Source: Cellulomonas shaoxiangyii
GTDB lineage: Bacteria > Actinomycetota > Actinomycetes > Actinomycetales > Cellulomonadaceae
Reading direction: 5' to 3'
Assembly: GCF_004798685.1 (NCBI RefSeq)
Contig: NZ_CP039291.1
Span: forward strand, 620,001 to 684,000
DNA: 64,000 bases
Shown here: positions 45,378 to 60,478 of the stretch, piece by piece
How positions within the stretch are numbered: the stretch's first letter is position 1
How the letters are laid out: each line of letters begins with the position of its first letter
The notes under the pieces: generated by a model
What the model saw: the letters and a program-made list of their open reading frames with translations, nothing else
Told to the model about the DNA's origin: nothing
The model's database searches: none
Translations under genes and position numbers: made by a program

Positions 45378-46847
45378 CTACGCGAGCCCGGCGAGGTCGC
45401 CCAGCGGGACCGGCTTGACCGGCAGGTGCGCCGTGAACGGCCCGACCTGCTCCATCGGCCGGCCGGTGCGGGCGGCGACGAGCGCGCCGACGGTCGCCTC
45501 GCAGTACCGGCCCTGGCAGGTCCCCATCCCCGTGCGGCACTCGAGCTTGACGGCGTTGGCGGTCGAGACGTGGGGGTTCGCCGCCAGCGTCTCCTCCACG
45601 GTCGCGCGCGTGACGGACTCGCACCGGCAGACGAGCGTGCCGGGGGTCGCGAGGGAGGCGAGCGCCGCCCGGTCCGGCGCGAACGTGCGCTGCACGACGT
45701 CGGAGAACCGTCGCGCGCGGGCCACGTCGCGGCGCGCGCGGCGCAGTGCGGGCCCGTCGGCGGGGGAGGTGCCGCGCAGGTCGCACGCGGTGACGAGCCC
45801 CGCGAGGTGACCCTCCGCGCGCGCCTGCTCGGCGCCACGGACGCCGGCCGGCTCGCCGGCGACGAGCACGTCGGGCACCGACGTGCGCTGGTCGCCGTCG
45901 TGCGTGACGACCCACCCGCCGCCGGCGTCGTCCCACCGGGTCGCGCAGCCGGCCTGGCGGGCCAGCTCCGTCGAGCCGTGGAAGCCGAACCCGAGCACGA
46001 GCGCGTCGGCCTCGACCGTCCGGCCCCGGCCGACCGGGCGCCACGCCGCGTCGACGCGGCACAGCTCGACCCCCTCGACGCGGTCGGTCCCGAGCACGCG
46101 GGTCGGCACGGTGCGGGTCCGCACGCGGACGCCGGCACGCAGCAGGCGGCCGAGGGCGGCGGTGCTCGACGCGAGCAGGCCGGTGTGCCCCGGCACGGCC
46201 GGCAGGGCACGCAGCGCCTCGGCCGGGCCCGGCAGGCCGCGGGCGAGCGCGACCTCGGCGACGTGCGCCCCCGCCGCGACGAGCTGGTCGGCGACGAGCA
46301 GCAGGAGGGGATGGGCCCCCGCGAGGACGGGCCGGTGCCCGACGAGGACGCGCTGCGACTTCAGCAGCCCCTGCGCGGCACCCGCCGTGACGACGCCGGG
46401 CAGCGTCCACCCGGGCAGGGCGACGGGCATGTCGTACGCGCCCGTCGCCACCAGCAGGCGCCGTGCCCGCAGCGTCGCCGTGCCGTCGGGGCCGCTGACG
46501 GCGAGCCGCACCGGGGCCCCCGGCTCGTCCCGCAGGACGCCGAGCGCGGTCGTGTCCCACCGCCACGACACGTCCGACGCCGTGGCGTCGGCCACGAGGC
46601 CCGGCCCCCACGGGTACCCCGCCGGCCAGGTGTGCCGCGCGGTGGCGACGCCGCCGTGCGGGCGGCGGAAGACCTGGCCGCCCGGCCGCTGCTGCTCGTC
46701 GACCACGACGACGTCGAGACCGCGGCCGCGGGCGGCGAGCGCGGCCGCCATCCCGGCGGGCCCGGCGCCGACGACGACGAGGTCGTGCAGGGGCCCGGTG
46801 CTCATCGGCTCGGTGCTCATCGGCCCGCTGCTCGGCTCAGTGCTCAT
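45378..46847 (-). CDS. FAD/2Fe-2S oxidoreductase, HcnB / D-hydroxyproline dehydrogenase alpha-like
   Basis: A 489-residue subunit with an N-terminal FAD-binding fold (LHDLVVVGAGPAGMAAALAA), an NAD-type second nucleotide domain, ARRLLVATGAYDMPVALPGW, and a C-terminal Cys cluster CRCESVTRATVEETL with CRTGMGTCQGRYC, the BFD-like [2Fe-2S] site. With the next two genes it forms an HcnABC-like heterotrimer. The N-terminus MSTEPSSGPMSTEPMSTGP contains three repeated start-like ATGAGCAC blocks, so initiation at 46847, 46820 or 46805 is possible; 46847 overlaps the upstream stop by 11 nt. Confidence 0.85.
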   Translation of the reverse strand: MSTEPSSGPMSTEPMSTGPLHDLVVVGAGPAGMAAALAARGRGLDVVVVDEQQRPGGQVFRRPHGGVATARHTWPAGYPWGPGLVADATASDVSWRWDTTALGVLRDEPGAPVRLAVSGPDGTATLRARRLLVATGAYDMPVALPGWTLPGVVTAGAAQGLLKSQRVLVGHRPVLAGAHPLLLLVADQLVAAGAHVAEVALARGLPGPAEALRALPAVPGHTGLLASSTAALGRLLRAGVRVRTRTVPTRVLGTDRVEGVELCRVDAAWRPVGRGRTVEADALVLGFGFHGSTELARQAGCATRWDDAGGGWVVTHDGDQRTSVPDVLVAGEPAGVRGAEQARAEGHLAGLVTACDLRGTSPADGPALRRARRDVARARRFSDVVQRTFAPDRAALASLATPGTLVCRCESVTRATVEETLAANPHVSTANAVKLECRTGMGTCQGRYCEATVGALVAARTGRPMEQVGPFTAHLPVKPVPLGDLAGLA

Positions 46848-47133
46848 CGCTGCGCCGGACCTCCGCACCGGGCGTCGCGGGTGCCAGGCACGCGCGCACG
46901 GTCCGCCCGTCGACGCGCACCACGCACTCGAAGCACGTGCCCATGTGGCAGAACGGCGCGCGCGGCGCGCCGTCGCGGGCCGTGCGGAAGGCGTCGACGC
47001 CCGCGGCGAGGAGGGCCGTGGCGACGCTCTCGCCGTCGTGCGCGGGCACCGCACGCCCGTCGACGCTCAGGGCGAACGCGGAGCCGCGCGCCCCCGGGAG
47101 GCGTGCGGGGCCGCGCGTCGTGCTGTCGTTCAT
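46837..47133 (-). CDS. (2Fe-2S)-binding small subunit, HcnA-like
   Basis: A 98-residue ferredoxin-like subunit: ALSVDGRAVPAHDGESVATA, LLAAGVDAFRTARDGAPRAP, and the cluster ligands FCHMGTCFECVVRVDGR with a fourth Cys in VRACLAP. This is the gamma/HcnA subunit of D-amino-acid or hydroxyproline dehydrogenase complexes, carrying electrons between the two flavin subunits. ATGA overlap with the DadA-like gene. Confidence 0.87.
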   Translation of the reverse strand: MNDSTTRGPARLPGARGSAFALSVDGRAVPAHDGESVATALLAAGVDAFRTARDGAPRAPFCHMGTCFECVVRVDGRTVRACLAPATPGAEVRRSDEH

Positions 47134-48314
47134 GCCCACCGCCGGGGGTCGTAGGGGCTGACGTCGACGGCCGCGGGACGCCCTTGGACGAGGTCGCCGA
47201 GGACCTGCGCGAAGCTCGGGGCGAGCGTGAACGCCGACCCGCCGGTCGCGACGAACGCCCCGGGGGCGCCGGGCACGGGGCCGACGAGCGGGAGCTGGTC
47301 GGGCCCGACCGTGGTGGCGCCGACCCACGTGCGCAGCGTCTGCAGGTGGGCCAGGCGCGGGACCGCGCGGACGGCGGCGCGCGCGTTGCCCGCCAGCGAC
47401 GCGGGCACGACGGTGCCGCGGCCCGTGCGGTCGGGCGTGCCGTCGGCGTCCCGCACGAGGGCCGCGGGCCAACCGCCGCCGACGAGCACGTTGCCGTCCG
47501 CGGTCTGCTTCAGGGACAGGCGGGTGCCGGCGTGCTGCACGAGGTGGGGCAGGAAGGCGCGCGTGCGCTCGGTGACGCTCATCATCAGGCCGAGCACCGT
47601 CACGGGGAGCTCGACGCCGAGCATGCGGCCGAGCGTGCGCGTCCAGACGCCCGCGGCCAGCACGACCGCGTCCGCGCGCAGCGCACCGGGCTGCACGTCG
47701 CTCGGGGTGCGGGTGCTGGTGCCGAGGGTCCAGGTGCGCCCGTCGCGGCGCAGGGAGTCGACGCCGGTGCGCGTCCGGATCCGGGCGCCGTGGGCGGCGG
47801 CGGCGCGGGCGAGCGCCGGCGCGGCGGTGCGCGCGTTGGCGCGGCCCTCGGACGGGCAGTAGGCGGCCGCCAGGACGGCGGGGGACAGGTAGGGCGCGAG
47901 GTCGTGCACCTCGCGCGTGCCGAGCACGTGGACGTCGAGCCCACGTTCCCGCTCGAGGGCGGCCTTGGCCTCGAGCAGCCGCACGGTGGCGTCGTCGTCG
48001 GCGAGCATGAGTCCGCCGTGGCGGGCCACGCCGAGGGCGGGGCCGATCTCGGCGGCCAGGGCGTCCCAGCGGGCCGAGGCGTCGAGGTGCAGGGGCATCG
48101 CCTCGGCCGCGGTGCGGGCGGCGTCGAGGCCGGCCTCGATCATGCGGTACTCGAGCTGGAAGTGCAGGCTGCCGGCGTTCTGCCCGGACGCGTGCTGGTT
48201 CACCTGGTCGCGCTCGAGCAGGACGACGTCCGCGCCCTCCCGGGCGAGCAGGTGGGCCGTGGCGCAGCCGAGCAGGCCGCCGCCGACCACCGCGACGTCG
48301 CAGCGCTCGCTCAT
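47130..48314 (-). CDS. DadA/HcnC-like FAD-dependent oxidoreductase (catalytic beta subunit)
   Basis: A 394-residue amine oxidase-fold protein: MSERCDVAVVGGGLLGCATA opens the FAD-binding domain; ASGQNAGSLHFQLEYRMIE is the flavin-contact segment of the DadA/glycine oxidase family, and GATTVGPDQLPLVGPVPGAP with ATGGSAFTLAPSFAQ close the C-terminus. It should oxidise a secondary or D-amino acid such as cis-4-hydroxy-D-proline or D-proline. Coupled by ATGA overlaps to the lyase upstream and HcnA-like subunit downstream. Confidence 0.85.
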   Translation of the reverse strand: MSERCDVAVVGGGLLGCATAHLLAREGADVVLLERDQVNQHASGQNAGSLHFQLEYRMIEAGLDAARTAAEAMPLHLDASARWDALAAEIGPALGVARHGGLMLADDDATVRLLEAKAALERERGLDVHVLGTREVHDLAPYLSPAVLAAAYCPSEGRANARTAAPALARAAAAHGARIRTRTGVDSLRRDGRTWTLGTSTRTPSDVQPGALRADAVVLAAGVWTRTLGRMLGVELPVTVLGLMMSVTERTRAFLPHLVQHAGTRLSLKQTADGNVLVGGGWPAALVRDADGTPDRTGRGTVVPASLAGNARAAVRAVPRLAHLQTLRTWVGATTVGPDQLPLVGPVPGAPGAFVATGGSAFTLAPSFAQVLGDLVQGRPAAVDVSPYDPRRWA

Positions 48315-49243
48315 GCGAGGGGGACGGTCGCCACGCCGAGCGAGTGCAGCGTCCCGGCGACGACCGCGACCTCGTCCTCGGTGAGCTCCAGCAGCGGCCG
48401 GCGCACGTACCCCGCGGGCACCCCGCGCAGCCGCAGCGCGGTCTTCATGATCGCCTGGGCGTTGCCGAAGCGGGCGCCGTAGTCGGGGCGGAACCAGCTC
48501 TCCATGAGGACGCGGTCCCGCGCGCCCAGCGTGAGCGCGCGCTCACGGTCGCCCGCGGCGACGGCGCGCCAGAAGTCCGGGTGGTCGGCCCCGAGGACGC
48601 CGCCGGCGCCCATGAGCCCGTCGCCGTGCCCGAGGCCCGCCAGGTCCGCGCCCAGCGGGCTCGTCGGCACGCCGAAGTAGCGCACGCGGTCCTCGAGCGC
48701 GTACATCCCGCGCCAGAACGCGGCGGCGTCCCCCGTGGAGTTCTTCACCGCCACGACCGTGTCGATCGCCGCGAGCTCGCCGAGCAGGTCGGTGCCCATG
48801 TCGACGACGCAGCCGCGCGGCCAGTTGTAGACGCACAGCGGCATGTCGCTGCCCGCGGCGACGTCGCGGTAGAAGCGGACGATCTCGCGGTCCGTGGGCA
48901 CGACGTAGGGCGGCGGCGTGACCAGCACGCCGTCGAGGCCGGCGGCCTGCGCGGCGCGGGCGTGCCGCACGGACTCGTCGGCGGTGTAGGCGTTGCAGCC
49001 GCCCAGCACGGTGACCCGGCCGTCGACGACGCGGGCGCCCTCGCGGAACAGGGTGGCGCGCTCCTGCTCGGTCAGCGCGAACCACTCACCGGTCGTGCCG
49101 GCGAGGACGACGCCGTGCATGCCCTGGCCGACGAGCCACTCCAGCTGGTGGCCGAGGGCGTCGAGGTCGAGCGCGCCGTCGCGGTCGAAGGGCGTCGTGA
49201 CGGCCGGCACGTAGCCGGCCCAGTCGACGTCGTGGCGGTCCAT
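48311..49243 (-). CDS. DHDPS/NAL-family lyase, candidate pyrroline-hydroxycarboxylate deaminase
   Basis: A 310-residue class I aldolase-fold enzyme: GYVPAVTTPFDRDGALDLDA, VVLAGTTGEWFALTEQER, GLDGVLVTPPPYVVPTDREI, VYNWPRGCVVDMG (Tyr of the active site) and the Schiff-base lysine in VVAVKNSTGDAAAF (about residue 167). Members of this family include LhpC, which removes ammonia from pyrroline-4-hydroxy-2-carboxylate in hydroxyproline breakdown; next to a D-hydroxyproline dehydrogenase-like trio this role is likely but unproved. CCAGGAG lies upstream of the ATG. Confidence 0.82.
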   Translation of the reverse strand: MDRHDVDWAGYVPAVTTPFDRDGALDLDALGHQLEWLVGQGMHGVVLAGTTGEWFALTEQERATLFREGARVVDGRVTVLGGCNAYTADESVRHARAAQAAGLDGVLVTPPPYVVPTDREIVRFYRDVAAGSDMPLCVYNWPRGCVVDMGTDLLGELAAIDTVVAVKNSTGDAAAFWRGMYALEDRVRYFGVPTSPLGADLAGLGHGDGLMGAGGVLGADHPDFWRAVAAGDRERALTLGARDRVLMESWFRPDYGARFGNAQAIMKTALRLRGVPAGYVRRPLLELTEDEVAVVAGTLHSLGVATVPLA

Positions 49244-49277
49244 GGTGCTCCTGGTGCGCGGCGCGGTACGGGCGAGG

Positions 49278-49814
49278 TCAGGGGGTGGGCGGGGAGACGG
49301 TGAGCAGGAACGACGCCGGGGCACCCGAGGTGTTGGCGTAGCGGTGCGGCTCGCGGGAGTCGAACGTGACGGCGTCGCCGGCGCCGAGGTGGTGCGTCTG
49401 CGCGCCCACCTCCACGACGACCTCGCCGGTGAGCACGTAGACGCACTCGGTGGAGTCGTGGCCCCACGCGTGCTCGGAGCTGACGTCACCCGGCGCGAGC
49501 TCGGCGCGCAGCACCTCGAAGTCGCCGCGGCCCGGGGTGATGCGCTCGTAGGTGATGAGCCCGGCGGGGGCGGCCATCCGGAACCGCTCGCCGGGGCGCG
49601 AGACGTGCACGGCGGGTGCGTCGGGGTCGCGGAACAGCGAGGCCATGTCCGCCTCGAACACCCGCGCGAGCTTGCGCAGCGTGGTGACGCTGGGGTCGGT
49701 GCGCCCGTTCTCGATCTGGCTGAGGAGGGCGGTCGACAGGCCGGTCGCGTCCGCGACCTGCCGCAGGGTGAGCCCGTGCTGGTGGCGCAGCGCGCGCAGG
49801 CGGTCGCCGAGCAT
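49278..49814 (-). CDS. XRE-family regulator with cupin domain
   Basis: A 178-residue regulator: helix-turn-helix at residues 1-60 (LRQVADATGLSTALLSQIEN, GRTDPSVTTLRKLARVF) and a C-terminal cupin with AWGHDSTECVYVLTGEVVVE and GDAVTFDSREPHRYANT. Such proteins sense small metabolites and usually repress catabolic operons. It is the first gene of the leftward operon and is divergent from the peptide transporter operon, so it probably governs both. Confidence 0.9.
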   Translation of the reverse strand: MLGDRLRALRHQHGLTLRQVADATGLSTALLSQIENGRTDPSVTTLRKLARVFEADMASLFRDPDAPAVHVSRPGERFRMAAPAGLITYERITPGRGDFEVLRAELAPGDVSSEHAWGHDSTECVYVLTGEVVVEVGAQTHHLGAGDAVTFDSREPHRYANTSGAPASFLLTVSPPTP

Positions 49815-49859
49815 GCGCCCTCCTCGTGGTCGGTGGCGGGCCGGTGCCCGTCGCGGCCA

Positions 49860-49880
49860 GTGTTTCATCTTGGTGAACAC
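49860..49880. promoter_or_regulatory. candidate operator of the XRE-cupin regulator
   Basis: GTGTTTCA-TCTTGG-TGAACAC is a near-perfect inverted repeat in the 194-bp divergent control region, 46 bp from the regulator start and 129 bp from the transporter start. The rest of the region is AT-richer than average. Confidence 0.5.
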
Positions 49881-50008
49881 GTTTGATGGAACTGTACATC
49901 TGCCCAAATGCTGTGGTGTCATCTGGCGGACACGGCGTCTCATCGCCGCCCGACACCAGCAACAGCGCCGACCCGCAGGGCCGCGGACCACGGCACGGAC
50001 GGAGAACC

Positions 50009-51643
50009 ATGCAGCGACACACCAGCCGAGGCCGAGCGGTCCTCGCACTGGCCGCGGTGGGCGCACTGACGCTCACGGCGTGCACGGCGGGCTCCTCCGG
50101 CGGTGCCGGCGGGACGGGCGGCGGCGGCACGGACGCCGACGGCGGCGACGGCGGCGGCACGCTCACCGTCGCCAACTCGTTCGTCGTCAAGAGCCTCGAC
50201 CCCGCCCAGGTGTACGAGGCCACGGGCGTCATGACCGTGCACGCCCTCTACGACACGCTCACGACCTTCGAGGGCTCGGACGTCTCCACGCCCGTGCCGC
50301 TGGTGGCCGAGAGCTGGGAGGCGAACGAGGACTCCACGCAGTTCACGTTCCGGCTGCGCGACGACGTGACGTTCTCCGACGGCTCGGAGCTGACGGCCGA
50401 CGACGTCGTGTTCAGCCTCAACCGGCTCGTCGCGCTCAAGGGCAGCCCCTCGGTCACCGTCGCCGGCTTCAGCGCGTCCTCGCCCGAGGACGGCGTCGTC
50501 GTCGTGACGACCGAGGCCCCGAACCCCAACGTGCCCACGATCCTGGCCATGCCGTCCACCGGCATCGTCAACGCCGACGTCGCCCGCGAGAACGGCGCGA
50601 CGGACGCGGCGGACGCGCCCGAGGCCGACTCGGCGACCGCCTTCCTCGACGGGGAGTCGCTCGGCTCCGGCCCGTACGTCCTCGACTCCTTCGACCCGGC
50701 GTCCGAGATCGTCCTGACCGCGAACCCCGAGTACTGGGGCGAGGCGCCCGCGTACGAGCGGGTCGTCGTCCAGAACGTCGAGGCGCAGAACCAGAAGATG
50801 AGCGTCGAGCGCGCCGGGGGCGACTACGTCGCGCTCGACCTGTCCGGGCGCATGCTCGAGGGGCTCGACGACGCGCTGCAGGTGTCCAGCACGCAGGACA
50901 CGTTCTACTTCCTGACGCTGCACCAGGACCCCGCCGTCAGCGACGTCACGTCCAACCTCGAGTTCGTCCGGGCGCTGCGCGCGTCCATCGACTACGAGGG
51001 CCTCGCCGCGCTGTTCGGGGCCGAGGCACGCCCCGCCGCGGGCATGGTCCCGACCGCGTTCGCCGGTGCCCTGCCCGAGTCCGAGTCGAAGGCGCAGGAC
51101 CTCGACGCCGCCGCCGAGCACCTGGCCGCCTCCGGCCTGGCCGACCCGAGCGTCACGCTCATGTTCCCCGCGATGACCTACCGTGGCGTCGACCTGGCCA
51201 CCATCGCCACGAAGGTGCAGAACGACGCGGCCCAGGCCGGCATCACCGTGCAGCTCGACCCGCAGCCCATCGCGTCGTTCCTCGACGCCCAGAGCGCGGG
51301 CAACGTCGCGTTCCGGTTCAGCCCGCAGTCGCTGAACTACCCCGTCGCGTCGTCCCTGGTGAACAACTTCCACCCGGGGCACCCGAGCGCGGTGCGCACC
51401 GGCTGGACGCTCGAGCGCGCCACCCCGGAGGTCGTGGCCGCCGGCGAGCGCGTCATGGCGGCCGTCGAGAGCGACGAGGAGCTCGCGGCGGTGCAGGACT
51501 GGCAGCGCGCGCTCGACCAGGACGGGCCGTACATCCCGCTCGCCTACAACTCGGGCGTCGTGGTGTCCACCCCCGACCTCGTCGGGGCGGACTACTCGCC
51601 CGCCGGCTGGCAGGTCGACCTGCGCGACGTGGCGCGCCGATGA
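50009..51643 (+). CDS. peptide ABC transporter substrate-binding lipoprotein (family 5)
   Basis: A 544-residue solute-binding protein of the OppA/DppA family. Signal peptide with lipobox LTLTAC (Cys25), a Gly-rich tether, then TLTVANSFVVKSLDPAQVYE, FTFRLRDDVTFSDGSELTAD (the SBP_bac_5 signature), and SGPYVLDSFDPASEIVLTAN. Anchored outside the membrane, it delivers di- or oligopeptides to the permease pair downstream. First gene of a ten-gene chain. CGGAGAACC lies before the ATG. Confidence 0.92.
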   Translation: MQRHTSRGRAVLALAAVGALTLTACTAGSSGGAGGTGGGGTDADGGDGGGTLTVANSFVVKSLDPAQVYEATGVMTVHALYDTLTTFEGSDVSTPVPLVAESWEANEDSTQFTFRLRDDVTFSDGSELTADDVVFSLNRLVALKGSPSVTVAGFSASSPEDGVVVVTTEAPNPNVPTILAMPSTGIVNADVARENGATDAADAPEADSATAFLDGESLGSGPYVLDSFDPASEIVLTANPEYWGEAPAYERVVVQNVEAQNQKMSVERAGGDYVALDLSGRMLEGLDDALQVSSTQDTFYFLTLHQDPAVSDVTSNLEFVRALRASIDYEGLAALFGAEARPAAGMVPTAFAGALPESESKAQDLDAAAEHLAASGLADPSVTLMFPAMTYRGVDLATIATKVQNDAAQAGITVQLDPQPIASFLDAQSAGNVAFRFSPQSLNYPVASSLVNNFHPGHPSAVRTGWTLERATPEVVAAGERVMAAVESDEELAAVQDWQRALDQDGPYIPLAYNSGVVVSTPDLVGADYSPAGWQVDLRDVARR

Positions 51644-52782
51644 CGGGCGGTGTCGCCCCGACGGGGAGCGGCACCACCGCCCGGCAGGACCGTGCGGAGG
51701 GCGGGGTGAGCACCACCCCGCCCTCCGGCGGCGCTCCTGCGCGGGAGCGGTGGCGCGGCACCACCCGCGCGGTCCGGTACGTCTCCCGCCGCGTCGCCAT
51801 CACGGCGGCGCTGCTGCTCGGCGTCACCGTCATGACGTTCCTCATCGTGCAGGCCGTGCCCGGGGACGCCGCGACGGCGAACCTCTCCGAGACCGCGCTC
51901 AACGACCCCGAGGTCGTCGCGGCGTACCGCGCCAAGTGGGGCCTCGACCAGCCGCTGCCCGTGCAGTACTGGGTGTACCTGACGCACGTCCTGCAGGGCG
52001 ACCTGGGCATCTCCCAGCAGACGGGTCGCCCCGTCCTCGGCGACCTCATGACCTACGTGCCCGCGACGCTCGAGATCGCGCTGCCGGCGATGCTCCTCGC
52101 GATCGTCATCGGCACCGCGGTCGGGCTGTACGCCGCCGTGCACCACGACCGCGCCGGCGACCAGGTCGTGCGCTTCGGCACCCTGCTCGGCCTGTCGACG
52201 CCGTCGTTCTGGCTGTCGCTCGTCGTGCTGTACGTCTTCTTCTACGTGCTCGGGGTCGCGCCGTCGGGCGGGCGGCTCAGCACCTGGCTGACGCCACCGC
52301 CGCGCGTCACCGGGATGTTCACGGTCGACGCCGCGCTCGCGGGCCGGTGGGACGTGTGGTGGGACGCCGTGCAGCACCTGGCGCTGCCGGTCCTCGTCCT
52401 GACCTTCCTCACGGTCGCGATCCTCACGCGGTTCGTGCGCTCCGCCATGCTCGAGGTGCTCGACGCGGACTACATCCGTGCCGCGCGCGCCAAGGGGCTG
52501 CCCGAGCGCACCGTGCTGCGCCACCACGTGCTGCGCGCCGGCCTCGTGCCCGTCATCACCGTCAGCGGCCTGGCGTTCGCCTCGCTGCTGTCCGGGACCG
52601 TGCTGGTCGAGCAGATCTTCGGCTGGCCGGGTGTGGGCCAGTACGCGTACCGGGCCGCGAGCGGCCTCGACATGCCCGCCATCATGGGGGTCAGCCTCTT
52701 CGTGGCGCTCGTGTACACGGCCGTCAACCTCGCCGTGGACCTCCTCTACGGCGTCATCGACCCGCGGATCAGGGTGTCATGA
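51640..52782 (+). CDS. ABC transporter permease, DppB-like
   Basis: A 380-residue inner-membrane permease with six helices: RRVAITAALLLGVTVMTFLI begins helix 1, and the EAA loop reads AARAKGLPERTVLRHHVLRA, with GTVLVEQIFGWPGVGQYAYR after it, typical of DppB/OppB. The first ~40 residues are disordered; an internal GTG near 51706 with GGAGG upstream could give a shorter protein. ATGA overlap with the binding protein. Confidence 0.92.
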   Translation: MTGGVAPTGSGTTARQDRAEGGVSTTPPSGGAPARERWRGTTRAVRYVSRRVAITAALLLGVTVMTFLIVQAVPGDAATANLSETALNDPEVVAAYRAKWGLDQPLPVQYWVYLTHVLQGDLGISQQTGRPVLGDLMTYVPATLEIALPAMLLAIVIGTAVGLYAAVHHDRAGDQVVRFGTLLGLSTPSFWLSLVVLYVFFYVLGVAPSGGRLSTWLTPPPRVTGMFTVDAALAGRWDVWWDAVQHLALPVLVLTFLTVAILTRFVRSAMLEVLDADYIRAARAKGLPERTVLRHHVLRAGLVPVITVSGLAFASLLSGTVLVEQIFGWPGVGQYAYRAASGLDMPAIMGVSLFVALVYTAVNLAVDLLYGVIDPRIRVS

Positions 52783-53744
52783 GCTTCGAGGTGCAGCGTC
52801 CCGCCCCCGTCCCGACCGAGGTGCCCGCGCAGGCCCCGGACGGTGCGGCGACCCCCGCGGACCGGCGTGCGGCGCGCGCCCTGGGCCGCGGGCGCTGGCC
52901 CCAGCGCCTGCGGGTGCGGTCGGTGCACGGCATCTGGCGCCAGCCCGCCGTCGTCCTCGCGATCACGCTCATCGTCGGCTGGCTCGCGGTCGCCGCCACC
53001 GCGTCGTGGCTGGCCCCGTACGACCCGGTCGCCCAGTCGCCCGAGCTGTACGCCGCACCCTCCGGCGCGCACGCCTTCGGCACCGACGAGCTGGGCCGCG
53101 ACGTGCTGAGCCGCGTGCTGCACGGTGCGCGCCTGTCCCTGCCGCTCGCGTTCGTCATCGTCCTCGGGTCGCTCGCCATCGGCGGGCTGCTCGGCCTCGT
53201 CGCCGGCTACCTCGGCAAGGCCGTCGACGAGGTGATCATGCGCGTGACCGACCTGTTCTTCGCGTTCCCGCAGATCATCCTCGCGATGGCGGTCTCCGCC
53301 GCGTTCGGCCCGAGCACCCGCAACGCCGTCCTCGCGCTGATCCTCGTGTCCTGGCCGACGTACACGCGGGTCATCCGGTCCGCCGTCCTGAGCATCCGCG
53401 GGTCGGACTACCTCGCCGCGGCCCGCATGCTCGGCGTCGGGCCGGTGCGGGCGCTGCGCCGCGACGTCGTGCCCAACTCGGTGGGTCCCGCCGTCGTGCT
53501 GGCCACGCTCGAGCTCGGCAACGCCGTCCTCATGCTCGCCGCGCTCTCGTTCCTCGGTCTCGGCCCCCGTCCCCCGGCGGCCGAGTGGGGCGCGATGATC
53601 GCCGGTGGCTCGCGCGACCTGTCGATGTGGTGGGTCAGCGTCTTCCCCGGTCTGGCGATCCTCACCGTCGTGCTCGCGTTCAACGTGCTCGGCGACGCGC
53701 TGCGCGACCGCCTCGACCCCCGGCACGCGAAGGGCATGTCATGA
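52779..53744 (+). CDS. ABC transporter permease, DppC-like
   Basis: A 321-residue second permease subunit: N-terminal OppC segment with a first helix (PAVVLAITLIVGWLAVAATA), HAFGTDELGRDVLSRVLHGA (OppC signature), and the EAA loop AARMLGVGPVRALRRDVVPN. Pairs with the DppB-like subunit. Coupled by 4-nt overlaps on both sides. Confidence 0.92.
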   Translation: MSFEVQRPAPVPTEVPAQAPDGAATPADRRAARALGRGRWPQRLRVRSVHGIWRQPAVVLAITLIVGWLAVAATASWLAPYDPVAQSPELYAAPSGAHAFGTDELGRDVLSRVLHGARLSLPLAFVIVLGSLAIGGLLGLVAGYLGKAVDEVIMRVTDLFFAFPQIILAMAVSAAFGPSTRNAVLALILVSWPTYTRVIRSAVLSIRGSDYLAAARMLGVGPVRALRRDVVPNSVGPAVVLATLELGNAVLMLAALSFLGLGPRPPAAEWGAMIAGGSRDLSMWWVSVFPGLAILTVVLAFNVLGDALRDRLDPRHAKGMS

Positions 53745-54751
53745 CCCGTCTGCTCGACGTCCAGGACCTGGCGGTCGCGCTGCCCGCGGCCGGCGGCGGG
53801 ACGGTCCCGGTCATCCACCAGGCGTCCCTGCACGTCGACGAGGGCGAGATCGTCGGCATCGCCGGGGAGTCCGGGTCGGGCAAGTCCATGACGGCCCAGG
53901 CCCTGCTGGGCCTGCTGCCCGCCGGCGCCCGGGTCAGCGGCCGTGCGTCCCTCGGCGGCACCGACCTGCTGGCCCTGCGCGGCAAGCAGTGGAACGCGGT
54001 GCGCGGCGCGCAGGTCGCGATGGTGTTCCAGGACGCCACGTCGGCGCTGCACCCCATGCTGACGATCGGGCGCCAGCTCACCGAGCACATGCGTCTGCAC
54101 CTGGGCGTGGACCGGCGCACCGCGAACCGGCGCGCGGCCGAGCTGCTCGACCGCGTCCGCATCCCGGAGCCGGAGCGCGCGCTGCGCGCGTACCCGCACC
54201 AGTTCTCGGGCGGCATGCGCCAGCGCGTCGCCATCGCCGCGGCCCTGGCGTGCAACCCGCGCCTGCTCATCGCCGACGAGCCGACCACCGCCCTCGACGT
54301 GACCGTGCAGGCCGGCATCCTCGAGCTGCTGGACGAGCTGCGCCGCGACATGGGGCTCGCCGTCCTGTTCATCACGCACGACCTCGGCGTGCTCGCGGCG
54401 CTGACGTCGCGCGCGTACGTGTTCTACGCCGGGCGGGTCATGGAGTCGGCGGCGACGACGGACCTGCTGCTCGACCCCCGGCACCCGTACACGGCGGCGC
54501 TGCTGCGGGCGCGCCCGCACGCCGACGACTCCTGGCACACCGCGACCGGCGCACCGGGCGCCGGTCGGCTGCAGACGATCCCGGGGGCGCCCGCGACGCC
54601 GGCCACCGCGGGCCCGGGCTGCCCGTTCGCGCCGCGCTGCACGTTCCGCCAGGACCGCTGCACGGACGCCCCGCCGCCGCTCGTCGCGGTCGGCCCCGAC
54701 CGGGGCGCGGCGTGCGTCGTCCTGCCCGACCTGCAGGAGGTGCCGGCATGA
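53741..54751 (+). CDS. ABC transporter ATP-binding protein, DppD-like
   Basis: A 336-residue ATPase: Walker A GESGSGKSMT, Q-loop MVFQDATSALHP, signature FSGGMRQRVAIAAALA, Walker B LLIADEPTTALDV, and switch His in FITHDLGVLA. The oligopeptide-transporter C-terminal extension with a CPFAPRCTFRQDRC cluster (four Cys, 4Fe-4S type) is present. Forms the ATPase dimer with the next gene. Confidence 0.93.
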   Translation: MTRLLDVQDLAVALPAAGGGTVPVIHQASLHVDEGEIVGIAGESGSGKSMTAQALLGLLPAGARVSGRASLGGTDLLALRGKQWNAVRGAQVAMVFQDATSALHPMLTIGRQLTEHMRLHLGVDRRTANRRAAELLDRVRIPEPERALRAYPHQFSGGMRQRVAIAAALACNPRLLIADEPTTALDVTVQAGILELLDELRRDMGLAVLFITHDLGVLAALTSRAYVFYAGRVMESAATTDLLLDPRHPYTAALLRARPHADDSWHTATGAPGAGRLQTIPGAPATPATAGPGCPFAPRCTFRQDRCTDAPPPLVAVGPDRGAACVVLPDLQEVPA

Positions 54752-55746
54752 GCCTGCTCGAGGTACGCGACGTCGAGGTCCGGTTCCGCAGCCGCAGCCG
54801 CGGCGCGGTGCGCGCGGTCGACGGCGTCAGCCTGACCGTCGAGCGCGGCCAGGTCGTCGGGCTCGTCGGGGAGTCCGGCTGCGGCAAGTCGTCCCTGGCG
54901 CGTGCCGTGGTGGGGCTCGAGCACGTCAGCGCGGGGCAGGTCCTCCTCGACGGGGCCCCCGTGGCGCCGCTCGGCTGGCGGCGCCGGACCGCGCACGACG
55001 TCCGGCTGCAGATGGTGTTCCAGAACCCGTACGGCTCCCTGAACCCGCGCCGGACCATCGGCTCGCAGCTGCGTGACGGCCTGCGCACGCCCGCCGGCGC
55101 GGCCGACCCGGCGGGCGAGGTGCGGCGGCTGCTCGACCTCGTGGGCCTCGACGCGGAGGCGGCCGAGCGGTACCCGCACCAGTTCTCCGGCGGTCAGCGC
55201 CAGCGGGTCGTCATCGCGCGGGCGCTCGCGGCCGACCCCGACGTGCTGGTCGCGGACGAGCCGGTGACAGCGCTGGACGCCTCCTCGCAGGCGCAGGTCG
55301 TGAACCTGCTGGTGCGGCTCGTCGACGAGCTGGGCCTGGGCATGCTCTTCATCTCCCACGACCTGGCGCTCGTGCGCGAGATCGCCGACGTCACGGCGGT
55401 GATGTACCTGGGGCGGATCGTCGAGGCGGGTCCGACGGCGCAGGTGTGGTCGTCCCCGCAGCACCCCTACACGCGGGCGCTCATCGACGCCCTGCCGCGC
55501 ATCTCGGCGGCGCCGACGCTGCCCGTCAGCCTGCTCGGGGAGGTGCCGGACGCGGCGCGCATCCCCGTGGGCTGCCGGTTCCGGCCGCGGTGCCCGCACG
55601 CGATGGACGTGTGCCGGACCGACCCGCCCGTCGTGCAGCTCGGTGCGCAGTGGTCGGCGTGCTGGCTGCCCGCGCACGGGGCGACGCCGACGACGACGCA
55701 GGACACGGCCGGCGTGAGCGCCGGCACGACGGAGGGACGGGCATGA
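54748..55746 (+). CDS. ABC transporter ATP-binding protein, DppF-like
   Basis: A 332-residue ATPase: Walker A GESGCGKSSL, QMVFQNPYGSLNPRRTIG, signature FSGGQRQRVVIARALA, Walker B VLVADEPVTALDA, FISHDLALV, and a C-terminal RFRPRCPHAMDVCRTDPP segment. Partner of the DppD-like ATPase. Overlaps the amidohydrolase start by 4 nt. Confidence 0.93.
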   Translation: MSLLEVRDVEVRFRSRSRGAVRAVDGVSLTVERGQVVGLVGESGCGKSSLARAVVGLEHVSAGQVLLDGAPVAPLGWRRRTAHDVRLQMVFQNPYGSLNPRRTIGSQLRDGLRTPAGAADPAGEVRRLLDLVGLDAEAAERYPHQFSGGQRQRVVIARALAADPDVLVADEPVTALDASSQAQVVNLLVRLVDELGLGMLFISHDLALVREIADVTAVMYLGRIVEAGPTAQVWSSPQHPYTRALIDALPRISAAPTLPVSLLGEVPDAARIPVGCRFRPRCPHAMDVCRTDPPVVQLGAQWSACWLPAHGATPTTTQDTAGVSAGTTEGRA

Positions 55747-56987
55747 GCACGACGGTGGGGTCGGTCCTGACGGGCTGTGCGGTGTGGGACGGCGTCGCGG
55801 ACGCGACGGCGCCCGGCTGGGCGGTGCACGTGCGCGCCGACGGCACGCTGGGCGCGGTCGGCCCGGAGGCGGAGGTGCTCGCCGCCGCGCCGGACGCCGA
55901 CCGCGTCGACCTCGGCGGAGGCGTCGTCGTGCCCGGCCTGCTGAACATGCACGTGCACCTCGGGCTCGCGCTGCCCGGGGCGATGCAGGACGCGGCGCGC
56001 GGTGCCGGCGAGGCCACGCAGACGCTGCTCATGACGGGCAACGCCGCGCAGACCCTGCGGGCGGGCGTGACCACGGTGCGGCTCGTGGGCGAGACGGGCT
56101 TCACCGACATGGCGCTGCGGGCCGCCGTCCGGGCGGGCCACGTCCCGGGCCCCCGGATCTTCACCGCCGGCCACGCGCTGTGCTGCACCGGCGGGCACGG
56201 CCACGACGCGGACGCCATGGAGGCCGACGGTGCGGACGGGTTCCGCCGCGCCACGCGCGTGCAGCTGCGCGCGGGCGCCGACCTCATCAAGGTGTGCATC
56301 TCCGGGGGCATCGCGGGCCTGCACGAGACGATCGACTCCCCCCAGATGACGGACGAGGAGATGGCCGCGGTCATCTCGACCGCGCACGACTGGGGGCGCA
56401 AGGTCACCGCGCACGCGGGGCCGACGCCCGTCGTGCGGCGGGCGGTCGAGCTGGGCCTCGACTGCGTCGAGCACGGGTACGAGCTCGACGCCGAGGTCTG
56501 CGCGCTCATGGCCGAGCGCGGCGTCGCGTACGTGCCGACCATCACCGTCAGCCGCTGCGAGGAGTTCTTCCGCGCCAACGGCGTGCCGCAGTGGATGATC
56601 GACCGGGCGCTGGGTGCCGGACCGCGCCACTGGGAGAGCCTGCAGCACGCGATCGCCGCCGGCGTGACGATCATGATGGGCACCGACATGCCGCCGCAGG
56701 CGGAGTACGACGGGACCACCGCAACCGTGCGGGAGATGGAGTTCATGGTCGACGCGGGCATGTCCCCGCTGCAGGTCATGCGCTCGGCGACCGGCGTGCC
56801 CGCCGACTGGCTGGGCGGGGAGGACGTCCTCGGCCGGCTCGTGCCGGGAGCCGTCGCGGACCTGCTCGTGCTCGACGCGGACCCCGTCGCCGACGTGTCC
56901 GCGCTGCGCGGCCTGCACGCCGTCGTGCAGGGCGGGCGCACGGTGCGCGACGACCGCGGCCTGCTGACCGCGCTGGGGCGCCCGTGA
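55743..56987 (+). CDS. amidohydrolase, COG1228 prolidase/imidazolonepropionase-like
   Basis: A 414-residue TIM-barrel metal hydrolase. Metal-binding motifs: PGLLNMHVHLGLALPG (HxH), the carboxylated-lysine segment GADLIKVCISGGIAG, KVTAHAGPTPVVRRAVE (His), DCVEHGYELDAE (His) and IMMGTDMPPQ (Asp). The subgroup includes cytoplasmic dipeptidases acting on Xaa-Pro or Xaa-Arg/Lys peptides. In the peptide-importer operon a dipeptidase (prolidase) role is likely; hydrolysis of another cyclic amide is the alternative. Confidence 0.85.
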   Translation: MSTTVGSVLTGCAVWDGVADATAPGWAVHVRADGTLGAVGPEAEVLAAAPDADRVDLGGGVVVPGLLNMHVHLGLALPGAMQDAARGAGEATQTLLMTGNAAQTLRAGVTTVRLVGETGFTDMALRAAVRAGHVPGPRIFTAGHALCCTGGHGHDADAMEADGADGFRRATRVQLRAGADLIKVCISGGIAGLHETIDSPQMTDEEMAAVISTAHDWGRKVTAHAGPTPVVRRAVELGLDCVEHGYELDAEVCALMAERGVAYVPTITVSRCEEFFRANGVPQWMIDRALGAGPRHWESLQHAIAAGVTIMMGTDMPPQAEYDGTTATVREMEFMVDAGMSPLQVMRSATGVPADWLGGEDVLGRLVPGAVADLLVLDADPVADVSALRGLHAVVQGGRTVRDDRGLLTALGRP

Positions 56988-57316
56988 CGGCCGGCGGGAG
57001 CCCGCCCGCGACGACCGACCTGTACGACCTGCGGGTCGTCGTCGAGCGCATCGAGGGCCGGTCCGTGTGCGGCATGCAGGTGGGGGACTGCCTGGAGCTG
57101 TCGCAGTCGCGCGTCACGATCCCCGACGGGCGGCACTTCTGCCTGTACGCCCTGTCCGCGGTGCTGCCGCTGCTGCCCGCCAAGCAGCGCGACCTCGCGC
57201 CGGGCGACTGGCTCGCGGCCGACGCCCACGTCGCCTGCCCCGACCCGGAGGAGCGGCTCGTCATGCGGATCGAGCGCACGGGCCGCTCGTCCGTCCCCAC
57301 CGAGGAGCTCACGTGA
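56984..57316 (+). CDS. TIGR04076-family protein
   Basis: A 110-residue protein: LYDLRVVVERIEGRSVCGMQ, VGDCLELSQSRVTIPDGRHF, CLYALSAVLPLLPAKQRDL and VACPDPEERLVMRIERTG, which is the TIGR04076 pattern with its conserved Cys residues. Function unknown. Always short, soluble and often in redox or catabolic operons; here coupled by 4-nt overlaps between the amidohydrolase and the LLM enzyme. Confidence 0.8.
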   Translation: MTAGGSPPATTDLYDLRVVVERIEGRSVCGMQVGDCLELSQSRVTIPDGRHFCLYALSAVLPLLPAKQRDLAPGDWLAADAHVACPDPEERLVMRIERTGRSSVPTEELT

Positions 57317-58365
57317 CCGGCACGACCGACCGGCCGGTGCGCGTCACCGTCGCCCTGCAGTCCGACAAGACGACGGCCGAGTACCGCGCGCTCGCCGAGC
57401 GCGTCGAGGGGCACGGCTTCGACGGCCTGTCCGTGTACGCCGACCTGGGCTTCCAGCCGCCGTTGCCCGCGCTGCTCACGGCGGCCGCGCACACGCGGCA
57501 CCTGACGCTGGGGCCCGCGTGCCTCAACCCGTACCTCACGCACCCCGTGGAGATCGCGGGGCAGGCGGCGGCGCTCGACGAGGCCAGCGGCGGGCGCTCG
57601 TACCTGGGCCTCGCGCGGGGGTCGTGGCTGGACCGGGCGGGGGTCGCGCAGGAACGCCCGCTGCGGGCGCTGGAGGACACCGTCGCGATCGTGCGCCGGC
57701 TGCTGGCCGGTGACGACTCCGGCTACGAGGGCACCGTCCACCACCTGCCGGCGGGCACCGCGCTGCACTACCGCCCGCTGCGCCCCGCGGTCGAGCTGCT
57801 GCTCGGCGTGTGGGGCCCGCACGGCGCGCGGCTCGCGGGCCGCCTCGCGGACGAGGTGAAGATCGGTGGCTCGACGAACCCGGACATGGTGCGCCTCATG
57901 CGCGGCTGGCTGGACGAGTCCGCCGCGGCCGCCGGGCGGCCCGCCGGGTCGGTCGGCGTGGTCGCCGGCGCCGTGACGGTCGTCGACGAGGACGGCGCGC
58001 TGGCACGGCGGGTGGCCCGCCGCGAGGTCGCGATGTACGTGGACGTCGTGGCGGCGCTCGACCGGACCGTCGACGTCGACCCGGAGCTGCTGCGCCGCCT
58101 GCACGCCCTGCTGGCCGCCGGGGCCCTGGACGAGGCCGGTGCGCTGCTGCCGGACGACGTGCTCGACCGGTTCTGCTTCGCCGGCACCCCGCAGGCCGTG
58201 GCCGAGCGGACGATCGCGCTCGCCGAGGCGGGCGCGACGCGCGTCGAGTTCGGCACGCCGCACGGCCTGACCGGTCCGGGCGGCATCGACCTGCTCGGTA
58301 CCGCGGTGCTGCCCGCGGTCCGGGAGGCGCTCGGCGCCCGCGCGGTCGCGGGGGTGGGCGCGTGA
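57313..58365 (+). CDS. LLM-class flavin-dependent oxidoreductase (Mer-like)
   Basis: A 350-residue TIM-barrel flavin or F420 enzyme: VRVTVALQSDKTTAEYRALA, GHGFDGLSVYADLGFQPPLP, LGPACLNPYLTHPVEIAGQA, SGGRSYLGLARGSWLDRAGV and VELLLGVWGPHGARLAGRLA. It resembles methylenetetrahydromethanopterin-reductase-type LLM proteins. Substrate unknown; in this operon it might oxidise or reduce a product of imported peptides. 4-nt overlaps on both sides. Confidence 0.82.
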   Translation: MTGTTDRPVRVTVALQSDKTTAEYRALAERVEGHGFDGLSVYADLGFQPPLPALLTAAAHTRHLTLGPACLNPYLTHPVEIAGQAAALDEASGGRSYLGLARGSWLDRAGVAQERPLRALEDTVAIVRRLLAGDDSGYEGTVHHLPAGTALHYRPLRPAVELLLGVWGPHGARLAGRLADEVKIGGSTNPDMVRLMRGWLDESAAAAGRPAGSVGVVAGAVTVVDEDGALARRVARREVAMYVDVVAALDRTVDVDPELLRRLHALLAAGALDEAGALLPDDVLDRFCFAGTPQAVAERTIALAEAGATRVEFGTPHGLTGPGGIDLLGTAVLPAVREALGARAVAGVGA

Positions 58366-58409
58366 GCGCGCCGGAGACCTCGCGCGTGAGCGCGGCGGAG
58401 ACCTCGCCG
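58362..58409 (+). repeat. 24-bp duplication across the DUF885 start codon
   Basis: 58362-58385 and 58386-58409 match at 22 of 24 positions, so GTGAGCGCG and the following six codons occur twice (MSAPETSR, VSAAETSP). Confidence 0.85.
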
Positions 58410-60095
58410 GTGCGCGCGGTCCTCGACGGCTACGTCGCCGAGCTGGCCACGCTCGACCCGGACGCCGCGGAGGCGCTCGGCCGCACCGACGTCCTGCGCG
58501 TGGCCGACCTGTCGCCGGACGCGTTCGCCGCCCGGGCGGACCTGGACCGGCGCACGCTCGCCGCCCTGACGGCCGCGCCGGCCGACGGCCCCGACGCGAC
58601 GCTGAGGCTCGCGGCGCTCGAGCGCCTGGGGAGCGACGTCGCGCTCGACGAGGTCGGGTTCACCCGGCGCCTCCTCGCGCCCCTCGCCACCCCGGTCCAC
58701 CTGGTGCGGCAGGTGTTCGACGGGCTGCCGCGCTCGTCCGAGGACGACTGGCGGCGGGTCGCGGCGCACCTGGCGGAGGTCCCGCGGGCGCTGGCCCAGT
58801 ACCGGGCGACGCTCGAGCAGGCGGCCGACCGCGGGCACGTCGTCGCGGTCCGGCAGGTCGAGGTCGTCGCCGGCCAGTGCGACGCGTGGGTCGCCGGCGG
58901 CTTCTACCCGGGCGTGGCCGCCGGGTACGGCGGCGCCGACGCGGCGCTGGCGCGCACGCTCGCGGCACGGGCCGACGACGCGGCGGCGGCGACGGCCGCC
59001 TTCGCCGCCGACCTGCGGACGCGGCTGGCGCCCCGGGCGGGGCGCGCCGACGGGGTGGGCCGCGAGACCTACTCCGTCACGAGCGCCGCGTTCCTCGGCA
59101 CGAGCGTCGACCTCGACGACCTGTACGCGTGGGGGTGGGCGGAGATCGCCCGGCTGCAGGGCCGTGCGCGCGACCTCGCCCGTGCGGTCGTCGGCACCCC
59201 GGACGTCGCCGCCGCGGTCGCGGCGCTCGACGCGGACCCGGCGCGCCGCGTGGACGTCGGGGCGCCGCTCGAGGCGTGGCTCCAGGGCCGTCTCGACGCC
59301 GTGACGGACGCGGTCGACGGCCGCTGGTTCGACCTTCCGGCACGCCACCGGCGGGTGGAGGCGCGGCTGACCACCGCCGCGTCGGGCGTCATGTACTACA
59401 CGCCGCCGGACGCCGGGGGGACGCGGCCCGGGCGCGTGTGGTGGACCGTGCCCGCGGGCACGCAGCACGTCGCGACGTGGCGCGACGTGAGCACCGTGCA
59501 CCACGAGGGCGTGCCGGGGCACCACCTGCAGCACGCGGTCACCTACGGGCTCGACCTGCACCCGTGGCAGCGCCTGCTGTGCCACGTGCACGGCTACGCG
59601 GAGGGGTGGGCGCACTACGCCGAGCACCTCGCGGAGGAGATCGGGCTGCTCGACGACCCCGGCGAGCGGCTGGGCGCCGTGTTCGCCCAGCTGTGGCGCG
59701 CGTGCCGCATCGTCGTCGACATCGGTCTGCACCTCGACCTCCCCGTCCCGGCCGGCACCGGCGTGCGCTGCCTCGACGGCCGGGACCGCTGGACGCCGGA
59801 GCTCGGCGTGCAGGTGCTGCGCGAGGTCGCCGAGGTCGACGCGACCACCGCCGCCTTCGAGGTGGACCGCTACCTCGGCTGGCCGGGCCAGGCGCTCGCG
59901 TTCAAGGTCGGCGCGCGGCTGTGGCAGCAGGTGCGCGCGGACGCGCAGGCCCGTACCGACCGCCTCGACCTGCGCGACTTCCACATGACCGCGCTCGGCC
60001 TGGGCCCCATGGGTCTCGGACCGCTGCGCACGGCCCTCGCCACGACCCTCGGCGCCCGCCCGGACGCCCCGTCACGACAGGACGCACCCGCATGA
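58362..60095 (+). CDS. DUF885-family putative zinc peptidase
   Basis: A 577-residue DUF885 protein. The zinc motif is TVHHEGVPGHHLQHAVTYG (HExxxH-type HEGVPGHH, about residue 379) with a downstream EGWAHYAEHLAEEIG (about 413); the final part ALGLGPMGLGPLRTAL is also typical. The family is thought to be carboxypeptidase-like and no signal peptide is present, so it acts in the cytoplasm. The first 16 codons are a 24-bp tandem duplication containing two start codons (GTG 58362 and GTG 58386). Confidence 0.85.
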   Translation: MSAPETSRVSAAETSPVRAVLDGYVAELATLDPDAAEALGRTDVLRVADLSPDAFAARADLDRRTLAALTAAPADGPDATLRLAALERLGSDVALDEVGFTRRLLAPLATPVHLVRQVFDGLPRSSEDDWRRVAAHLAEVPRALAQYRATLEQAADRGHVVAVRQVEVVAGQCDAWVAGGFYPGVAAGYGGADAALARTLAARADDAAAATAAFAADLRTRLAPRAGRADGVGRETYSVTSAAFLGTSVDLDDLYAWGWAEIARLQGRARDLARAVVGTPDVAAAVAALDADPARRVDVGAPLEAWLQGRLDAVTDAVDGRWFDLPARHRRVEARLTTAASGVMYYTPPDAGGTRPGRVWWTVPAGTQHVATWRDVSTVHHEGVPGHHLQHAVTYGLDLHPWQRLLCHVHGYAEGWAHYAEHLAEEIGLLDDPGERLGAVFAQLWRACRIVVDIGLHLDLPVPAGTGVRCLDGRDRWTPELGVQVLREVAEVDATTAAFEVDRYLGWPGQALAFKVGARLWQQVRADAQARTDRLDLRDFHMTALGLGPMGLGPLRTALATTLGARPDAPSRQDAPA

Positions 60096-60478
60096 GCACC
60101 GCCGCACGCGACGAGGTCGTCGCCCACATCGCCTCCCTGTACGACGCCCTCGGCGACCGGCCCCGGTTCGACGCGCACCTGGACCCCGACGTGCTGATGT
60201 GGGAGTCCGACGCGCCCGGCGTCCTGCGCGGCCTGCGGGCGCTGGACGCGCTGCGGGACGTGCGCCGCGAGCGGGCCTCCGACGGTCCCCGGCCGGTGTC
60301 GGTGGCGCCCGAGGTCGTCGCGGCGGACGCGTGGGGCGACACCGGCGTCGTGCGCTACGAGCTGCGCGCCCGCTACGAGGGCGCCACGCCCGACGAGGTG
60401 TACCGCGTCACCGACGTGCTGCGGCGCGGCGGCGAGGGCTGGCGGATCGTGCACCACCACTCCGAGCGCGTCGGCTGA
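60092..60478 (+). CDS. SnoaL/NTF2-like protein
   Basis: A 128-residue NTF2-fold protein: VVAHIASLYDALGDRPRFDA, HLDPDVLMWESDAPGVLRG, and WRIVHHHSERVG at the end, matching DUF4440/SnoaL_3 proteins. These are small ligand-binding or isomerase-like domains of open function. Last gene of the ten-gene chain, coupled by an ATGA overlap. Confidence 0.83.
   Translation: MSTAARDEVVAHIASLYDALGDRPRFDAHLDPDVLMWESDAPGVLRGLRALDALRDVRRERASDGPRPVSVAPEVVAADAWGDTGVVRYELRARYEGATPDEVYRVTDVLRRGGEGWRIVHHHSERVG

Follow-up and report, generated by a model that had tools for sequence, protein, structure and literature searches.

What does a bacterium degrade with a peptide-type importer placed back to back with a flavin dehydrogenase and a lyase whose families recall hydroxyproline catabolism? 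This question is raised by a divergent locus in a 64,000-nucleotide stretch of the Cellulomonas shaoxiangyii genome (contig NZ_CP039291.1, positions 620,001 to 684,000; from here on, the window). The original prediction had read the locus as a regulon joining peptide uptake to a hydroxyproline-type pathway, with the caveat that the substrate might be a different one. We find that the locus is real, conserved, coherent, and easy to misassign. Its gene content, the linkage of its genes, the placement of its enzymes in separate clades, and the conservation of an operator-like motif are directly supported. On balance, these comparisons lean toward a substrate-responsive peptide-scavenging regulon that would feed an amino acid oxidation and a lyase step, the amino acid most likely not being hydroxyproline.

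Linkage of the two arms and a candidate operator

The host genome is 3.91 Mb in one contig and 100% complete by a computed figure, and the guanine-plus-cytosine content is 72-80% across the window. Scans of the window for open reading frames, start sites, and families (Pfam and NCBIfam) recovered each gene of the predicted layout as an open frame that matches a family. Outward from the intergenic region, the minus-strand arm carries genes for an XRE-cupin regulator, a DHDPS-family lyase, and the HcnC-, HcnA-, and HcnB-type subunits of a dehydrogenase. The plus-strand arm carries, in order, genes for a solute-binding protein, two permeases, two ATPases, an amidohydrolase, a TIGR04076 protein, an LLM-class protein, a DUF885 protein, and a SnoaL-like protein.

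Related loci (L numbers) were collected by scanning one-genome-per-species contigs with an alignment of 17 lyase orthologues. The scan gave 65 loci with lyases 42-88% identical to that of the window, the closest among the named loci being from Cellulomonas avistercoris (88%). Within the host's family the cluster is rare, the lyase being matched at an E value of 1e-40 in 3 of 150 sampled genomes, the host included. Using tblastn with the 15 window proteins to record neighbor content, we found HcnC close to the lyase in 62 of the 65 loci; in two of the misses the contig stops at the lyase (L040 and L065), and one is a true miss (L061). The complete five-gene importer accompanies the lyase, the dehydrogenase, and the amidohydrolase in 17 of the 65 loci. 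Nine of these 17 loci have the divergent layout of the window (L004, L035, L037, L041, L042, L044, L046, L048, and L049), while the other eight, from Microbacteriaceae (L006, L011, L012, L023, L026, L028, L031, and L047), have importer, amidohydrolase, lyase, and dehydrogenase genes all on the same strand. Because HcnC accompanies the lyase so regularly and the whole importer recurs with it, the gene arrangement is not due to chance; on these comparative grounds, both arms belong together as one unit.

Among 24 importer-type regions preceding the XRE-cupin gene, 21 contain the motif TCAA-N5-TT[ACG]A (absent from L003, L040, and L041), compared with a mean of 0.40 and a maximum of 2 in shuffled sequences; among 22 other regulator upstream regions, only 2 contain it (shuffle mean, 0.82). 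These values are for a motif picked after inspecting the sequences and for 40 shuffles made by a simplified method. The 24 regions leave out the window itself (L001), include near-copies (L011/L012/L047 and L026/L028/L031) as well as two loci assigned to the importer group by lineage (L043 and L050), and have L003 and L040 taken as one contig. A 19-base form covering the window site has a single occurrence genome-wide when up to three mismatches are allowed. This distribution fits a single local regulator with a single putative operator. The 17 linked loci and the operator-like motif thus uphold the predicted divergent regulon connecting a peptide-type importer and hydrolases with an HcnABC-type dehydrogenase and a DHDPS-family lyase.

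Upstream of the regulator in 11 of the 22 other-importer regions (L008, L010, L013-L016, L021, L022, L024, L030, and L038), and in none of the 24 importer-type regions, we observed a TGCAC/GTGCA dyad. Its taking the place of the TCAA motif at other-importer loci suggests that DNA specificity has shifted inside one regulator family.

Separation from the racemase-linked enzymes

The dehydrogenase has the features of the HcnABC type, with a nucleotide-binding motif (GxGxxG) and an Arg-X-Trp motif in HcnC and two [2Fe-2S] motifs, which comprise four cysteines in HcnA and CxC plus further cysteines in HcnB, so that the set is distributed across three subunits. HcnC is related to chain B of 1y56 (E value of 5e-20; among the PDB matches, not the best), a chain that carries the label sarcosine oxidase and belongs to what we take to be an archaeal L-proline dehydrogenase complex; the similarity to that complex is distant, and the gene context is another one. 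The lyase, which is of the same DHDPS family as DapA and 5-dehydro-4-deoxyglucarate dehydratase, scored nearly equally against the dapA and PRK03620 models (130.0 and 127.7 bits, both below cut-off). Lyases of this family form a Schiff base with their substrates, which are 2-oxo acids or cyclic imines. We take lysine 167 to be the catalytic residue, and a PPP[YF] stretch lies at what is presumably the place of the second active-site tyrosine of DapA. Trp54, Trp141, and Arg143 presumably line the pocket; of the 29 window-type rows sampled, 24 retain Arg143. The structure model of the lyase has a mean predicted local distance difference test (pLDDT) score of 83.6, with residues 194-197 and 201-211 below 50, and no conclusion was drawn from it. 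The lyase had no match in the phage collection at an E value of 1e-40.

Three-subunit dehydrogenases of this design are known for D-hydroxyproline, opines, and archaeal L-proline, according to the accessible part of PMC4575208, and a DAO-family oxidase paired with a DHDPS-family lyase is known for the hydroxyproline pathway, according to that of PMC4113996. The trans-4-hydroxy-L-proline pathway comprises an epimerase, a D-hydroxyproline dehydrogenase, a pyrroline-4-hydroxy-2-carboxylate deaminase, and a ketoglutarate semialdehyde dehydrogenase, and it has in common with the window a three-subunit DAO-family dehydrogenase adjoining a DHDPS-family lyase. Unlike this pathway, the window system has no epimerase genome-wide and no aldehyde dehydrogenase at the locus, and its enzymes fall in other clades with other motifs.

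The epimerase is missing, as predicted: the whole complete genome has no match to the proline-racemase family PF05544, a family that, in the excerpt of PMC4113996, also includes enzymes besides 4-hydroxyproline epimerase. Likewise, no racemase was matched at any of 68 window-type loci (up to 10 kb a side) with queries that detect racemases in racemase regions (14 frames, one of which, L072, is a chance motif match). Among 44 genomes with a window-type lyase, 23 have a PF05544 match, 21 of them above the cut-off, and 12 of these 21 racemase regions were fetched. A DHDPS relative is present in 10 of the 12 regions (29-38% identical to the window lyase, some over partial length) and an HcnC relative in 9 (25-33% identical to that of the window). 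Both are present in eight regions (L075, L076, L077, L079, L082, L083, L084, and L085), where local alignments give 30-35% identity for the DHDPS relatives and 25-33% for HcnC.

In the lyase tree, the 29 window-type sequences (27 of the 65 loci, a plasmid copy, and the window) form one clade (support, 100/99; branch length, 2.24) apart from nine racemase-locus lyases and two own paralogues. The HcnC tree likewise splits 27 window-type rows (25 of the 65 loci, the plasmid copy, and the window) from eight racemase-locus rows with support of 98/95; L082 was below the score or length limit. The active-site motifs divide the same lyases: GT[TS]GEW and YNWP (the latter counted from printed rows) each occur in 29 of 29 window-type and 0 of 9 racemase-locus lyases, while GS[LM]G[ED] and YNNP occur in none of the 29 window-type lyases and in 7 and 8, respectively, of the 9 racemase-locus lyases. 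Two aldehyde dehydrogenase queries, the only ones used, had a match at a single one of the 68 window-type loci (L005) and in 5 of the 12 racemase regions. The predicted lack of a ketoglutarate semialdehyde dehydrogenase holds for the locus. Outside it, the genome gave six Aldedh matches; among the four strongest, succinate semialdehyde dehydrogenase was the top-scoring assignment for two, and the remaining two matched no family, probably because the wrong strand was read. The genome without PF05544, the 68 loci without a racemase, the separate clades of both enzymes, and the motif split speak against the assignment to a hydroxyproline-type pathway and bear out the caveat about the substrate.

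Importers, hydrolases, and alternative substrates

The importer has the composition of an Opp-type system, with a solute-binding protein of family 5, two permeases, and two ATPases with oligo_HPY domains (Table 1). The best NCBIfam model for the amidohydrolase is the Xaa-Pro dipeptidase NF051886, at 250.1 bits half of the cut-off of 500. Its PDB relatives 2qs8, named Xaa-Pro dipeptidase, and 3mtw, named L-arginine carboxypeptidase Cc2672, are similar over most of the length, and the HxH, Lys, and GTD motifs are present. The TIGR04076 and LLM-class proteins co-occur, both being present in 7 and both absent in 11 of 18 genomes; in six of the seven genomes they are at this locus, and in Micromonospora (G179) they lie inside another cluster. 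The TIGR04076 model (pLDDT, 91.7) had no PDB match at an E value of 0.001 or better; one paper naming this family, in its accessible part, offers redox or iron-cluster roles as a guess (PMC8667426). The best PDB relatives of the LLM-class protein are methylene-tetrahydromethanopterin reductases. F420 chemistry, such as the pyrroline reduction by Apd6 enzymes described in the excerpt of PMC8498797, was considered for it and rejected. Because the host has no CofD above the cut-off (best score, 19.6 bits; cut-off, 257.45), CofD being the only marker of F420 biosynthesis used, the LLM-class protein probably works here without F420.

Ribosome-binding-like sequences lie within 18 bases of the chosen start in 9 of the 15 genes; the starts of the remaining six (HcnA, HcnC, both permeases, TIGR04076, and DUF885) are uncertain. 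The cluster is followed by a MOSC gene, which is on the opposite strand, and a gene for a glycoside hydrolase of family 3.

Table 1. Genes and candidate operator of the divergent locus, in window coordinates
Feature	Position	Strand	Basis
HcnB-type (alpha) subunit, NAD(P)/FAD fold plus BFD [2Fe-2S]	45378..46847	-	Pfam Pyr_redox_2, Fer2_BFD; cysteine motif
HcnA-type (gamma) subunit, [2Fe-2S]; start uncertain	46837..47133	-	Pfam Fer2_4; four-cysteine motif
HcnC-type (beta, catalytic) subunit, DAO family	47130..48314	-	Pfam DAO; clade apart from racemase-locus HcnC, 98/95
DHDPS-family Schiff-base lyase, distinct subfamily (GT[TS]GEW, YNWP)	48311..49243	-	Pfam; clade 100/99; motifs
XRE-cupin transcription regulator	49278..49814	-	HTH_31 and Cupin_2
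Candidate operator TCAA-N5-TT[ACG]A, divergent intergenic region	49874..49886	-	Motif count; 19-base form unique in genome
Solute-binding protein, family 5	50009..51643	+	SBP_bac_5
Permease 1; start may be 51706	51640..52782	+	BPD_transp_1
Permease 2	52779..53744	+	BPD_transp_1
ATPase 1, oligopeptide type	53741..54751	+	ABC_tran and oligo_HPY
ATPase 2, oligopeptide type	54748..55746	+	ABC_tran and oligo_HPY
Amidohydrolase, candidate dipeptidase	55743..56987	+	Amidohydro_1; NCBIfam Xaa-Pro dipeptidase below cut-off; PDB relatives 2qs8, 3mtw
TIGR04076 small protein	56984..57316	+	68.8 bits, cut-off 33
LLM-class (luciferase-like) protein	57313..58365	+	Bac_luciferase
DUF885 protein, candidate metallopeptidase (HEGVPGH)	58362..60095	+	434.8 bits; PDB relative 3iuk (uncharacterized); motif
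SnoaL/NTF2-like small protein	60092..60478	+	SnoaL_3

Members of three phyla, Actinomycetota, Pseudomonadota, and Bacillota, carry the lyase and dehydrogenase pair. Other importers assigned by Pfam are of the NhaC-like, SSF, and SNF types, at one locus each (L009, L013, and L062, respectively); elsewhere, importers were placed by sequence clusters. Proteobacterial loci have extra Rid-family and VOC proteins, in line with the formation of an imine. Among the three Bacillaceae loci (L053, L055, and L064), Pfam or NCBIfam identified M24 peptidases in L053 and L064 and an M20 peptidase of the PepV group in L053, while the peptidases of L055 were recognized by eye only; Opp permeases and ATPases were matched in L064, a weak solute-binding protein only in L053, and none of these in L055. 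We also observed a copy of the lyase and dehydrogenase (L087:15001-18792) on the Bradyrhizobium elkanii plasmid pUSDA76, which is typed as conjugative, with IS66 and other transposase genes around it.

The principal alternative, which we nevertheless regard as unlikely, is that hydroxyproline is taken directly in the L form, so that no epimerase would be needed. It would accommodate the resemblance of the amidohydrolase to an Xaa-Pro dipeptidase, the M24 peptidases in L053 and L064 (for L064, the nearest models are an aminopeptidase and PepQ, below cut-offs), the absence of a racemase-family match from 11 of 16 full-importer genomes tested (17 loci; L012 left out), and the presence in Ornithinimicrobium of both a window-type operon (L036) and a racemase locus (L083), about 20 kb apart on contigs of 45,986 bases each that were taken as one. 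However, L- and D-hydroxyproline would yield the same imine, and yet both enzymes differ jointly from the racemase-linked pair. Moreover, the 12 racemase-region genomes also hold a window-type lyase, with a second lyase and HcnC in eight of these regions, and the aldehyde dehydrogenase counts differ between the two kinds of loci. Collagen-like peptides may be the source of the amino acid, given the likeness of some linked hydrolases to prolyl peptidases, though no finding requires such peptides. For D-amino acids, the findings speak neither in favor nor against.

Opine-type catabolism, in which a flavin opine dehydrogenase would split an ABC-imported N-substituted amino acid, appears quite improbable. 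As far as the excerpt of PMC4575208 describes OdhABC, it and the window have in common an FAD subunit, a [2Fe-2S] subunit, a BFD-type subunit, and a nearby ABC importer; the three-subunit design and the Arg-X-Trp motif are common to both, and opine clusters also come with ABC transporter genes. Unlike OdhABC, the window dehydrogenase is linked to hydrolases and to a Schiff-base lyase, and this conserved partner of HcnC would be needless for opine splitting.

HyuA/HyuB-like genes (hydantoinase/oxoprolinase, named by eye) adjoin Opp and amidohydrolase genes in L007 (2251-6005) and L114 (10745-16117) and are near the lyase in L061 (18514-20891). These neighbors hint at cyclic amides or cyclic dipeptides. 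A corresponding route, in which cyclic dipeptides, lactams, or hydantoins are taken up and their ring-opened products feed the dehydrogenase, would nonetheless surprise us: the 68 window-type loci include just two with a match, L007 and L061, the window itself has no match, L114 is without lyase or dehydrogenase, and L078 is a racemase locus. Least plausible is the classical hydroxyproline pathway, the idea of the original prediction, with an epimerase from another protein family. It has in its favor the same enzyme kinds, a DAO-family oxidase and a DHDPS-family lyase, as published in the accessible part of PMC4113996, and we rejected it on the unmatched PF05544, the lack of a racemase match at the 68 loci, the racemase loci with paralogues of their own, the separate clades, and the active-site motifs.

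The proposed pathway and its core

For the favored peptide-scavenging regulon, family membership and subunit architecture suggest the following steps. The XRE-cupin protein would sit on the single operator between the arms and be released upon ligand binding. The Opp-type importer would take up a short peptide or amide, which the amidohydrolase and the DUF885 protein would cleave in the cytosol. The HcnCAB-type FAD/[2Fe-2S] dehydrogenase would oxidize one freed alpha-amino acid at C2, and the lyase, via lysine 167, would dehydrate, deaminate, or cleave the imine or 2-oxo acid product. Oxidation at C2 would thus precede elimination at C4 or cleavage between C3 and C4, and, from the chemistry of the lyase family, this second step would imply an amino acid bearing a C4 group that can be eliminated or cleaved away. 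In the window's lineage, this amino acid probably arrives inside peptides.

Several observations weigh against this reading. The racemase-locus lyase of L083 lies outside the group formed by the other eight, and both trees carry long-branch warnings. Solute-binding proteins of family 5 also carry non-peptides, and that of the window scores best against a nickel-binding model, far below its cut-off. The PDB relatives of the amidohydrolase are not only dipeptidases but also amide hydrolases of other kinds, an ochratoxinase among them. A match to the amidohydrolase was obtained in just 24 of the 65 loci (20 of them in Actinomycetota, at least 39% identity). Because the other 41 loci have no match in the DNA examined, the peptide step lies outside the core. 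Finally, in Micromonospora G179 the amidohydrolase, SnoaL, TIGR04076, and LLM genes stand beside Opp and HyuA/HyuB-like genes without lyase or dehydrogenase, and because of this copy the module may have a job of its own.

That the importer varies while the lyase and dehydrogenase stay constant counts in favor of the proposed pathway. We hold the evidence to be evenly balanced on the broader proposal that the YNWP-type lyase and HcnCAB are the core of an undescribed amino acid catabolic pathway, present in three phyla, with lineage-specific importers and with a peptide-derived substrate in the window's lineage. A literature search by title and start of abstract, which most subscription papers fell outside, found no paper describing the gene set.

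Family-level annotation alone would label the operon as hydroxyproline catabolism or as hydrogen cyanide synthase. Because a further pair of enzymes built to this design sits in its own clade, the combination of a flavin dehydrogenase and a DHDPS-family lyase has probably been reused for another amino acid. Identification of the substrate would give a function to a lyase subfamily that spans Cellulomonas to Pseudomonas and Oceanobacillus, and likewise to the hydrolases and the small proteins that are linked with this lyase.

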